NCBI GenBank assembly: GCA_023701225.1
Contig: JAMPXM010000003.1
Location: 1-43,962 of the forward strand
DNA from: Pseudobdellovibrionaceae bacterium
Lineage (GTDB): Bacteria; Bdellovibrionota; Bdellovibrionia; Bdellovibrionales; JAMPXM01
Direction: 5' to 3'
Length of the DNA stretch: 43,962 nt
In this document: piece by piece, positions 35,931 to 40,362 of the stretch
Numbering within the stretch: position 1 is the stretch's first letter
How the letters are laid out: each line of letters opens with the position of its first letter
Notes under the pieces: generated by a model
Seen by the model: the letters and a program-made list of their open reading frames with translations, nothing else
What the model was told of the DNA's origin: nothing
Databases searched by the model: none
Made by a program: the position numbers and the translations under genes

Positions 35931-36025
35931 TGCGCGCGACGCCCTTCGCGCTACATGCAGACCTTATAGCCATCGCCGCGGTGTGCCGATTGCGGCTGAT
36001 GGAATGCTTGAGTTAGGAAGCGCTT

Positions 36026-36361
36026 GTGAAATCTCTTTTGGCTCTCTTGATCTTGTTTTTCACGTCGTTTGCGTTTGCCGGTAGCGGCTACAGCTGGGAC
36101 ATCGAGGGTTACTGTCGGTACTATTCGGGTGGTGGACGCGTAGGCAGAACGGTGAACGACCGCTTTTGTGGTGGCGGTGAGTATGCCTGGGATATCCAGG
36201 GGTATTGCCGCTATTACTCCCTCGGCGGACGAGCCGGTCGTTCGGTTAACGACACCTTCTGTGGTGGTGGTGGGTATACCTGGGATATCCGCGGCTATTG
36301 TCGCTACTATTCAGGCGGCGGTCGCATGGGCCGAACCGTGAACGACCACTTTTGCGACTAA
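36026..36361 (+). CDS. Secreted Cys-rich protein of three tandem 31-residue repeats
   Basis: A GTG start with AGGA seven bases upstream gives 111 residues. Residues 1-19 are a signal peptide. Then come three near-identical units of 31 residues (21-51, 52-82, 83-111). Each begins with a Tyr-x-Trp-Asp-Ile core, then GYCRYYS, a Gly/Arg-rich turn and a VND-x-FC end. Each unit has two Cys (30/48, 61/79, 92/110), spaced exactly 31 apart between units, so probably one disulfide per repeat. No family recognised. Aromatic, Arg and Gly residues suggest a cell-surface or glycan-binding role, which is speculation. Lies between the mutase operon and an MltD-like gene. Confidence 0.85.
   Translation: MKSLLALLILFFTSFAFAGSGYSWDIEGYCRYYSGGGRVGRTVNDRFCGGGEYAWDIQGYCRYYSLGGRAGRSVNDTFCGGGGYTWDIRGYCRYYSGGGRMGRTVNDHFCD
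36086..36358 (+). repeat. Three in-frame 93-bp direct repeats
   Basis: DNA repeats matching the three protein units (36086-36178, 36179-36271, 36272-36358). Copies differ at many third positions but keep the same residues, so they were duplicated long ago and kept by selection on the protein. Confidence 0.85.
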
Positions 36362-36573: not shown

Positions 36574-38094
36574 ATGTCGCTTGAACCCAAGACTGAACAT
36601 TCTCAAGGCCGTCTCCGTCTTCCGGAGTGGCTATCTCGGCCGCGGATGCTCCGTCGTCTGAGCATTGGCCTCTTGGTTTTGCTCCATGTCTTGGGCTTTG
36701 TTTGGCATCAATACGACGCTGGCCAAGAGGCACTCAACGCTGCGGATACCGTCGCGGCTGCGGGCGACACGATGGATGTGCCTGAAGTTTCGCTGACGGG
36801 ACCTTCGATTTTTGAACCCGGCTTTGGCCAAACTTTGATTCCGGGGCTTTCCTTTGAATCCGATCCGGCACCGTCGGCTCCAGAACGCTTGGAATTTGAT
36901 CGCGAGGCCGTCCTCTCGGACCAAGAAAATCGCATTCACGACGCTTTCCTGATTTCAGACGGACTGCGGGCTCGTGTCGGATTTTGGTTTGATGTCTATA
37001 CAAAATGGAGCGAGCACCAGCGCGTGATTCACCATGCCCGCTACCCATGGATCGTCTATCGCGTCGTCGACGTCACGTCGATTATCGAATCGCCGACACC
37101 CAAGTGGCGCTGGATGCGAAACCAGCATGCCGACAGTCTGGTGAAGAAAGAACTTTCAAAAATTCGCGCAGCACTTCGCTCGGTCTCCAAACGCCGGCAC
37201 CTCAATGACTTGAACTCTGATGAGCAAGATGTCGTCAACGCTCTCCACGGCTTGGGCGGCAATGTCCACACTCGTGCGCGTGCCGCTCTCGGCGAGACCC
37301 GCGTCCAAATGGGTCAGCGGAACTTTTTTGAAGAGGGATTGCGCATCAGCCCTCGCTACTTGCCGCAAATGGAACGCATTTTCGCGGCTCAGAAGCTGCC
37401 CATCGAACTCACTCGTCTGCCATTAGTGGAAAGCAGCTTCAACAAATTCGCGACCAGTAAAGATGGCGCCGCGGGTATTTGGCAGTTCATGAATAACGTG
37501 GGCGGAAAGTTCATGTTGATCAACGAACAGATCGACGAACGCCGCTCGCCATTCAAGGCCACCGAAGCGGCCGCACGCTTACTCAAAGAAAATCATCTCA
37601 TTCTCCATCGTCAGTGGCCGTTGGCCCTGACCGCCTACAACCATGGACCCAACGGCGTGCGACAGGCCGTGAAAGCGATGGGCACAAAAGACTTGTCACA
37701 AATCGTCGGCAAGTACCGCACGCGGATGTTCGGGTTCGCTTCGTCGAATTTTTATTCTTCGTTTTTGGCGGCGATGCATGCGCAGATGTACAACGACAAG
37801 ATTTGGCGCGGCCTTCAAACGGAACCCTCGCTAGATCCCCAAGTGGTCCGCCTTCCGCGCAGCTATCGCATCACGAAGTTGATGGCATTAACAGGTCTCG
37901 ATCGCGAGCAGATTCTTCTGTACAACCCGGACTTGAGTCAGATTCTCAAATACAACGGCTTAGTTCCACGCGGATTCCGCCTGCATGTGCCGAGTGATGC
38001 TCACTCCCGTGCCGTACAGAGGTTAGCGCAGCGAGTGGTTAAAGACGTTGATCACGCGGCTCTCCGTGAGAGCCGTGACCGATTGAATCTTTGA
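36574..38094 (+). CDS. MltD-like membrane-bound lytic transglycosylase
   Basis: Peptidoglycan lytic enzyme of 506 residues. The signal-anchor helix is at 31-43 (LSIGLLVLLHVLGFVW). A long low-complexity Asp/Pro-rich segment follows, then an SLT domain with the catalytic Glu286 in LPLVESSFNKFA, GAAGIWQFM and LALTAYNHGPNGV. The C-terminal 100 residues resemble the MltD domain before LysM, without clear LysM repeats. I chose the ATG at 36574. A TTG 51 nt upstream is open, and neither has a strong ribosome binding site. Its last 72 nt overlap the convergent gene at 38023. Confidence 0.85.
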   Translation: MSLEPKTEHSQGRLRLPEWLSRPRMLRRLSIGLLVLLHVLGFVWHQYDAGQEALNAADTVAAAGDTMDVPEVSLTGPSIFEPGFGQTLIPGLSFESDPAPSAPERLEFDREAVLSDQENRIHDAFLISDGLRARVGFWFDVYTKWSEHQRVIHHARYPWIVYRVVDVTSIIESPTPKWRWMRNQHADSLVKKELSKIRAALRSVSKRRHLNDLNSDEQDVVNALHGLGGNVHTRARAALGETRVQMGQRNFFEEGLRISPRYLPQMERIFAAQKLPIELTRLPLVESSFNKFATSKDGAAGIWQFMNNVGGKFMLINEQIDERRSPFKATEAAARLLKENHLILHRQWPLALTAYNHGPNGVRQAVKAMGTKDLSQIVGKYRTRMFGFASSNFYSSFLAAMHAQMYNDKIWRGLQTEPSLDPQVVRLPRSYRITKLMALTGLDREQILLYNPDLSQILKYNGLVPRGFRLHVPSDAHSRAVQRLAQRVVKDVDHAALRESRDRLNL

Positions 38095-40362
38095 AGAGCC
38101 CGCCGCAGAGACAACCGACACGGTTGCAAAGCCCTCTGGGACATTGAAAATCACGTAACCGCCACCCGCCACTCCGCTTGGACTCCAGAGCGCGTGGCCG
38201 CGCGCATCGAAATAAACGATCTTCGCCTGCTTGGCCGCGGCTTCTGGACGAAGATGAACTTGGTAGCCACTGCGCGCTTCGACGAAGCCAACGACAGTGC
38301 CTGAGGCTGGATCTTTTGAAATCCGACGATGATTGCGGACCTCGTCAACCCACCGCTGCTCGACCATTGGCGCATAAACAAACCCGCGTTCGCGCGGAAG
38401 ATTGATACGCGTCAGTGAGAATTGATCGCCCGCATCGACATCGAGAGTGATCAAACCTGTACCCAAAGCATAATTCAGCTTCGTGTGTCCGCTTGCGCCA
38501 ACGGAAAAGGCGGACTCTGAACCCACGGGCGTGATTTCCGCGGCCAACGGCACGTCCGTGCGGAAGGCATCGAACACACGAATGTCGATCTTGCGAGAGC
38601 GCTCCACTTCAAGATCGATACTCGACACATATTCCGCCTCGACCGGGAACAGTACGGGTTCCATGCCCACCTGACCATAAAACGCCTGAACGGCGTGCAC
38701 TCCCGGCTCGCGGATAATGAACGCGTAAGCTCCGTTGGCGGATGTGGCCGTCAAACTCGGGTCGGGTATGAAAAGGGAATTAAAATAGATCGGCTTGACG
38801 TTCTCTTCGCCCGTGAGCAGTTCCACGGTTGCTCCGGCAACGGGTTGGCGTCCTTGGCTCACGCGCCCCCAAACGACCGCGATCGGCTCGCGAGCATCCA
38901 AACCGCTGAGATGGCGGAATGCCGACATCATAGAATTGGGGAATAGCATGAGCTTGTTATCGCTTCCGGCTTCGACGAAAGCGAGGGTACCCCAATGACC
39001 CTGTTTACGGACCTTGGTAATAACAACCGAACCCGGCGCGATATCGTCGTCTTGAAACCGCCCATCGGCGCGCGCCACCAATGCCTGATCGATTTCTTCC
39101 AAATCCACGGCCGCACCCGGAATCGTCATGACTTTGTCCGCATGACTATAAGCAGATAGCACCTGGCCACGAATGCCGCGAATCACGGGTTGCATCGTCA
39201 GCTTGAGACCGTCGACTTGATACTGATTCGGGCGCGCCCGCACCGTCGAGAGCTCGATATGCCCGCGACCGAGGACATCGCCCGACGCGGTTTGCAACTC
39301 GCCGACAAGTTGGCCGAGTGTTTCCTGGAGATAAATTTCGTAACGGCCGTCACGTAACCAGACATAGCCCGATTCCAGACGCTCGCCTTCGGCTTCACGA
39401 TAAACCACGATTTGATCCGACGATGACGTCAAGGCAAGGCCGCCCGTCATCTCCAAAGGACCGGCAACGACCAGTTGATGTAACGTCGCGGCTGGCGCCT
39501 CTTCGGTCAACGCTTGGCGAGTGACCTGCTGCTCTGTCTCTCGTTTTTGCGCAGATCGACGGTCCGACAAGCCGCCCACACGGACTTGGGTCGGAGAAGT
39601 CCGTGCGCGTGTTCCCACAGAAGCGGCCACGGCTGCACGCGCATGATTTTGGTCTGCCGTGACGAGCGGAAAGAAAAGGCTACGAATCAATTCCGATCGC
39701 TCGATCTTCAACTCGGAGAGTCGGATTGTTTGGACAGCATGCTCGACAGGCGGGCGAGCCGCCGGCACTTCCGGCGCCGGTACATCCAATGCGCGAATCT
39801 GGCCGCCCGATACGAGCAAAGAACCAGGATCGGCGACGATCGCCCCCAACTCATCTGTTTCCGCTTGCACGGCGGAGGAAACAGCGAGGCTCGCTTGAAC
39901 CGCCTTCGGCGATACGGAGGCAGACGACTCCGCCAGAACCACACGCTCTTGTTGGTTCTGATTCATCCGCTGCGCCAATTTTTCGACGTCAGTCGCGATC
40001 TGCGCCTGCGTTATGCGAGCGGCCCGCTCGCGGGCTTCTTCAACCGCATGATTGGACGCCAGGATTTCTTGCGCCTTGGTGGTGAATTCCCGTTCACCAC
40101 TGGCCAAAATCTCCATCGGAGTAAAGGGCGAGAGATCGTCGAAATCGGTTTCCGCATCCCCGATCGTGTCTTCGAGAGCGGCGAACGCCGGTGAAGCGCG
40201 ATTGATTTGAATCTTCAAACCTTCGGCAAATGTACGCACATCAGTATCGGCGGGAGTCGGTGGATCAAGCCAAATCAGCGCCGGCAACGTCGCCGCAAGC
40301 GCAAGGCCGCAGGCGAAATGCAGAGGGAACTTGCGTTTTTTCGGCCGGCGAAAACGATACAC
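38023..40362 (-). CDS. Large membrane-anchored protein with carboxypeptidase-regulatory-like domains
   Basis: A 779-residue protein of unknown role. GTG start with GGAAG nine bases upstream. A basic N-terminus (RFRRPKKRKFP) and one transmembrane helix (15-31, FACGLALAATLPALIWL) give a single-pass protein with a large periplasmic part. Residues 90-140 are helical/coiled (EEARERAARITQAQIATDVEKLAQRM), 140-300 are low-complexity Ala/Ser/Pro, then several beta-sandwich modules. One near 520-590 matches a CarboxypepD regulatory-like fold (VWGRVSQGRQPVAGATVELLTG with YAFIIREPGVHAVQAFYG). Possible surface or peptidoglycan-linked factor. The end overlaps the MltD-like gene by 72 nt on the opposite strand. 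Confidence 0.7.
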   Translation of the reverse strand: MYRFRRPKKRKFPLHFACGLALAATLPALIWLDPPTPADTDVRTFAEGLKIQINRASPAFAALEDTIGDAETDFDDLSPFTPMEILASGEREFTTKAQEILASNHAVEEARERAARITQAQIATDVEKLAQRMNQNQQERVVLAESSASVSPKAVQASLAVSSAVQAETDELGAIVADPGSLLVSGGQIRALDVPAPEVPAARPPVEHAVQTIRLSELKIERSELIRSLFFPLVTADQNHARAAVAASVGTRARTSPTQVRVGGLSDRRSAQKRETEQQVTRQALTEEAPAATLHQLVVAGPLEMTGGLALTSSSDQIVVYREAEGERLESGYVWLRDGRYEIYLQETLGQLVGELQTASGDVLGRGHIELSTVRARPNQYQVDGLKLTMQPVIRGIRGQVLSAYSHADKVMTIPGAAVDLEEIDQALVARADGRFQDDDIAPGSVVITKVRKQGHWGTLAFVEAGSDNKLMLFPNSMMSAFRHLSGLDAREPIAVVWGRVSQGRQPVAGATVELLTGEENVKPIYFNSLFIPDPSLTATSANGAYAFIIREPGVHAVQAFYGQVGMEPVLFPVEAEYVSSIDLEVERSRKIDIRVFDAFRTDVPLAAEITPVGSESAFSVGASGHTKLNYALGTGLITLDVDAGDQFSLTRINLPRERGFVYAPMVEQRWVDEVRNHRRISKDPASGTVVGFVEARSGYQVHLRPEAAAKQAKIVYFDARGHALWSPSGVAGGGYVIFNVPEGFATVSVVSAAGSSKIQSVTALTESRVINVFNHSLR

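Follow-up and report, generated by a model that had tools for sequence, protein, structure and literature searches.

The window, the whole stretch of 43,962 nucleotides from a Pseudobdellovibrionaceae bacterium that was analysed here (contig JAMPXM010000003.1), carries on its forward strand, at 36026..36361, a gene for a small exported protein made of three cysteine-paired units of 31 residues. This protein belongs to a repeat family that is real, has no name in the libraries used, is patchily distributed within the Bdellovibrionota and is absent from the other genomes searched. In our best reading, drawn from architecture and given a probability of about 0.55, the protein would be an exported string of three disulfide-held mini-domains acting as a multivalent binding module.

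The gene and its three units

The ORF (111 aa) runs from a GTG start to a TAA stop and is preceded by a Shine-Dalgarno-like AGGAAG on the same strand (36015..36020), 5 bases upstream of the GTG. Residues 1-18 (36026..36079, +) form a plain Sec-type signal peptide, VKSLLALLILFFTSFAFA, with cleavage expected after AFA and no lipobox cysteine, as judged by eye and with a crude hydrophobicity rule. It is followed by three units of exactly 31 residues, all on the + strand, whose cores are YSWDIEGYC...VNDRFC (36089..36169, Cys30-Cys48), YAWDIQGYC...VNDTFC (36182..36262, Cys61-Cys79) and YTWDIRGYC...VNDHFC (36275..36355, Cys92-Cys110); the WDI motif recurs at residues 24, 55 and 86, and the two cysteines of each unit are separated by 17 residues. 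The mature protein is slightly basic (computed pI 8.3), with 11 K+R versus 7 D+E in the units. At a lag of 31, 46/62 residues are identical, whereas 20,000 shuffles of the protein's own residues average 6.6 and never exceed 17; the secreted protein of three Cys-paired 31-residue repeats described in an earlier note on this DNA is thus confirmed.

The units resemble each other more as protein (71-77% pairwise identity) than as DNA (66-71%). Indeed, the 89 nucleotide differences over the three unit comparisons (frames of 31 codons, the stop codon of the last unit being counted as one position) fall mostly at codon position 3 (54, versus 18 at position 1 and 17 at position 2), which indicates that the unit is constrained as a protein. 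In the 27-codon unit cores, the NG86 method gives a dN of 0.10-0.18 and a dS of 2.98 in one comparison, the other two being saturated or not computable. The ORF is therefore a coding gene, and its three units are an old duplication kept by selection on the protein.

The repeat gene was also said to stand alone, and this holds as to copy number: it is present in a single copy in its own genome (assembly 82.8% complete). A methylmalonyl-CoA mutase ORF ends 95 bp upstream of it and an SLT transglycosylase ORF begins about 160 bp downstream, all on the same strand. We found neither a promoter- nor a terminator-like site in the intervals that separate these neighbouring genes, and no RNA gene nearby, and the GC content of the gene (55.7%, versus 55.6% for the window) gives no sign of recent horizontal gain. 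The cell-wall-hydrolase neighbour looks incidental, because a genome of the same genus (G001) keeps the transglycosylase (66% identity) with a different upstream gene and no unit gene, and because the neighbours of other members are unrelated (rpsB, LysR-type regulator, Hsp20-like and GST-like genes, named by eye), with no recurrent gene neighbour across the neighbourhoods read. A 779-aa ORF on the other strand (38023-40362, −), with only a sub-threshold match to CarboxypepD_reg, adjoins the transglycosylase ORF.

Relatives within the phylum

The window protein alone, searched against 59 near genomes, matched two: its own and G056, which encodes a diverged three-unit relative. A two-row profile built from these two proteins reached 12/368 genomes of the phylum at E 0.01, some of the weakest perhaps by chance, and recovered relatives that had not been used to build it with per-genome E-values of 1.1e-18 (L009), 2.4e-11 (L010), 3.9e-11 (L011) and 1.1e-7 (L012). 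Two matches at E ~0.005 (L005 and L006) were rejected as chance, their reading frames being interrupted by stops. Extended profiles found 22/368 genomes (22 rows, two units) and then 28/368 at E 0.001 (25 rows), the weakest of these 28, at E ~5e-4, needing care; with the 25-row profile, 17/234 genomes with ≥90% completeness and ≤5% contamination were positive. One has to keep in mind that the E-values of the later profiles are not independent for members, since the profiles contain them, whereas those of the two-row profile are.

No unit gene was found in the 12 other genomes of the window's genus and family (G001-G012). Outside the phylum, the count was 0/688 genomes (684 distinct ones, G369, G398, G415 and G379 being counted twice), that is, 0/50 from mixed phyla (50 of 75 non-member loci given), 0/299 from the phylum of a Zoogloea genome and 0/46 from that of a “Deltaproteobacteria” genome, all with profile A5, as well as 0/147 and 0/146 from the phyla of an Acidobacteria and a Gaoshiqia genome, with profile A8. 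We also scanned the DNA of 84,980 species genomes with a pattern of two units behind Met-Lys, with a Trp needed in the second unit. It hit 89 stretches, and among the 80 matches listed 5 are in frame as members: L037 and L069 (Bdellovibrionaceae UBA2316 and UBA2351), L078 (Bdellovibrio sp. 28-41-41), L061 and L084. Identical proteins are encoded in G104, G103, G102, G228 and G248, the first three of which the genome search placed in the window's order and the last two in its phylum. As it requires Met-Lys and the second-unit Trp, this pattern misses the window protein (GTG start) and many relatives. The taxonomic spread that had been proposed as a check is thus narrow and, within the phylum, patchy (28/368 genomes, none of G001-G012), which suits an accessory role of any kind rather than binding in particular.

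No named family in the libraries used covers the repeat

The window protein has no match near the cut-off in Pfam, NCBIfam or PHROGs and nothing below E 0.7 among PDB sequences; its matches to the WWE (RNF146) and MATH domains, at 13.2 and 11.5 bits, are at chance level and were discarded. We found no tblastn match to it in plasmids or phages, and no member of the repeat family in viral contigs, where the DNA pattern hit 4 stretches, none of which encodes one; phage or plasmid carriage of the repeat was thus rejected. Among 27 distinct family proteins scanned against Pfam, the one clear pass lies outside the repeats (the trypsin domain of L136), and the repeat part of the relatives gives no confident named family, the borderline cases being Ricin_B_lectin in L135 and DUF1036 in L172. 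Nor did we find a paper on this repeat in the open-licence PubMed Central literature, so that the absence of a named family, claimed from the DNA letters alone, stands for the libraries used.

The two borderline cases differ in what they suggest. In L172, DUF1036 (PF06282) scores 23.2 bits against a cut-off of 23.0, and this score is a sum over weak repeats, as no single stretch passes; neither the window protein nor any other scanned member matches. The L135 match (E 6.6e-5, 23.5 bits) raises the idea of a divergent R-type (ricin B-like) lectin, in which the unit would be a shortened beta-trefoil subdomain and the protein would bind sugars; the G-x-C...V-x(4)-C layout presumably resembles that of ricin B-like subdomains. 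However, the match is below the curated cut-off of 29 bits and is the only one among the 27 proteins scanned, the window protein included in the negatives, and phmmer of L135 finds no PDB relative. Ricin B-like subdomains are about 40 residues long, a size for which a unit of 31 residues is too short, and copy numbers of 2, 4 and 5 are not divisible by three. We thus regard the lectin as quite improbable.

Unit anatomy and architectures

Across the family, the shared unit reads Y-x-W-x(3)-G-x-C-x(17)-C; an aromatic residue directly precedes the last Cys, and a Val stands five residues ahead of that Cys. Among 46 units selected for the 17-residue Cys spacing, Tyr1 is conserved in 28, Trp3 in 26, Gly7 in 33, Gly16 in 30, Val22 in 32, and Y, W or F before the last Cys in 32. 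The Cys spacing is nearly constant: in 22 proteins, it is 17 in 46 of 76 Cys pairs, 20 in 11, and 16, 18, 19 or 22 in the others, a few of the non-17 pairs falling outside true units. The nearest unit lies within the same protein for 32/46 units, as expected for units copied within a gene; orthologues among the rows make this number lower.

Copy number, the variation of which had also been proposed for checking, ranges from 2 to about 10, usually with the units alone after a signal peptide. Free-standing arrays hold two or three units (96-137 aa) or five or six; a 399-aa protein ends in four units, L135 contains about ten (counted by eye), and further units lie inside the very long ORFs L015 (open frame of 1720 aa) and L165. 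The crude signal-peptide rule was passed by 30 of the 32 assembled members, a table which omits L134 (one stop inside the match) and L015 (the ORF runs through the locus); the failures are G048, a fragment, and G171, which has a hydrophobic start without Lys/Arg. Compared with a reading by eye, the one-unit profile undercounts divergent members, finding for instance 2 of 4 units in the protease described below and none in G227.

Near-identical unit arrays of up to about ten per protein, together with the units within very long ORFs (L015 and L165), would suit a structural protein of the envelope or surface, whose units stack or cross-link into a matrix without any specific ligand. We nevertheless hold this to be unlikely, as many members are just 96-137 aa long with 2-3 units and one member carries the units as the tail of an enzyme. 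A binding module also has to accommodate the charge of the units, which varies widely, from the slightly basic window protein to 3 K+R versus 11 D+E in L061, several relatives having acidic units; a single conserved binding surface is consequently not apparent.

Other arrangements were noted in passing. A ~110-residue N-terminal domain with conserved Cys precedes one or two units in L013, L021, L126, L127, L129, L130 and L170:1906-3275, and has no Pfam match in the members scanned; in G102, three unit genes with this domain lie in a row (L170:1459-3275). At about residues 530-725 of L167 (G199), a 725-aa exported protein, we saw two unit-like stretches along with an HD-hydrolase-like part at the C-terminus (weak cas3_HD match, below the cut-off), and L172 (G223, 83-634) is a four-unit variant with longer Cys spacing.

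A protease with a repeat tail

In L136, a trypsin-like protease (Trypsin_2, 6.8e-20) is followed by four units. Its nearest plasmid relatives are serine proteases of Rhizobium and Bradyrhizobium, 42% and 39% identical over L136 residues 26-289 and 30-287, and past the shared part their genes continue for about 5 and 8 codons, stop included; the four units were therefore added to a complete enzyme. Where the earlier note had left the choice between adhesin, toxin and inhibitor, the position of the array, C-terminal to a complete protease, speaks for an accessory module for binding or targeting rather than for a free toxin.

A small antibacterial toxin or peptide against competitors or prey would fit the small size, export, Cys richness and slightly basic character of the window protein; however, we saw no immunity-like neighbour by eye in the neighbourhoods read, and the acidic units of several relatives and the enzyme-tail architecture argue against it, so that a toxin seems to us very improbable. 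The fusion could also be taken as pointing to an inhibitor or inhibitory tail, in which a disulfide-held loop would block a protease, be it the one fused to it in L136 or a foreign enzyme, small disulfide-rich exported repeats being typical of inhibitors. Yet the units come after the catalytic domain and not as an N-terminal pro-region, most members have no adjacent protease, and the Pfam scans revealed no similarity to a named inhibitor family; inhibition is, in our opinion, rather unlikely.

Predicted fold and comparison with known systems

Fold prediction had been suggested together with the other checks. With AlphaFold2 given only the window sequence and the five loci from the DNA pattern scan as input, a single unit was modelled with a mean pLDDT of 84.8 (79.9-84.8 across the five models), with predicted strands at 2-5, 11-14 and 21-23 and a helix at 27-30, strand 2 holding the first Cys and the helical turn the second. 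For three units, the model reached a pLDDT of 67.6 and a pTM of 0.43, and this low confidence makes the arrangement of the units (independent beads or packed) uncertain. Searched against solved structures with Foldseek, the single unit gave no match (best E 6.6), and VIA-align found no structure at Z ≥2.

For the three-unit model, the first two PDB matches in Foldseek were tandem WW domains, at a non-significant level (best E 0.18, probability 0.23, TM about 0.25), and VIA-align again listed no structure at Z ≥2. WW domains, which we take to have three strands, about 30-35 residues and a Trp in strand 1, would resemble the window unit in all three respects; the window unit differs in being exported and Cys-paired, and Pfam, searched up to E 10, shows no WW match for the window protein. 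The middle-region repeats of CsoS2, the alpha-carboxysome scaffold, show in 8wxb a Cys pair 17 residues apart, as in the window unit. The paired cysteines are described as physically adjacent in the microdomain formed by each repeat, and the repeat is defined by VTG triplets eight residues apart (PMC11365436). The window protein has no such triplets, and it is exported, whereas CsoS2 is the scaffold of an intracellular shell. The profile match of the repeat family to CsoS2 is weak (E 0.32 and 0.99) and is lost with the most similar subfamily alone, and we rejected homology.

Proposed role and significance

In the multivalent binding module that we favour, each 31-residue unit is predicted to fold into three short beta-strands (about YSW, CRYY and RTV) followed by a helical turn at the C-terminus, which ends in Cys. 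One disulfide would join the strand-2 Cys to that of the terminal turn, with a small core probably filled by the Trp and aromatic residues, and Gly-rich linkers would join the units as autonomous beads. The array would work in the periplasm or outside the cell, alone in the window protein and, in relatives where it lies behind other domains, as a targeting or substrate-binding tail.

These exported proteins, unnamed in the family libraries used, can now be described by a motif of the unit, a profile and the predicted fold. As a phylum, the Bdellovibrionota are known to prey on other bacteria. It is tempting, but in our view doubtful, to extend the binding module to a phylum-specific recognition scaffold: in the course of its evolution, the phylum would have gained a very small domain locked by a disulfide (about 27 structural residues), multiplied it within genes, varied its loops between proteins, and placed it on exported proteins and on proteases for binding to the surfaces or polymers of other cells, prey included. 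For a repeat unit with a single disulfide, the domain is very small, and it may be usable as a small scaffold; this size, together with the range in copy number and the fusion to a protease, makes it directly testable as a binding module.
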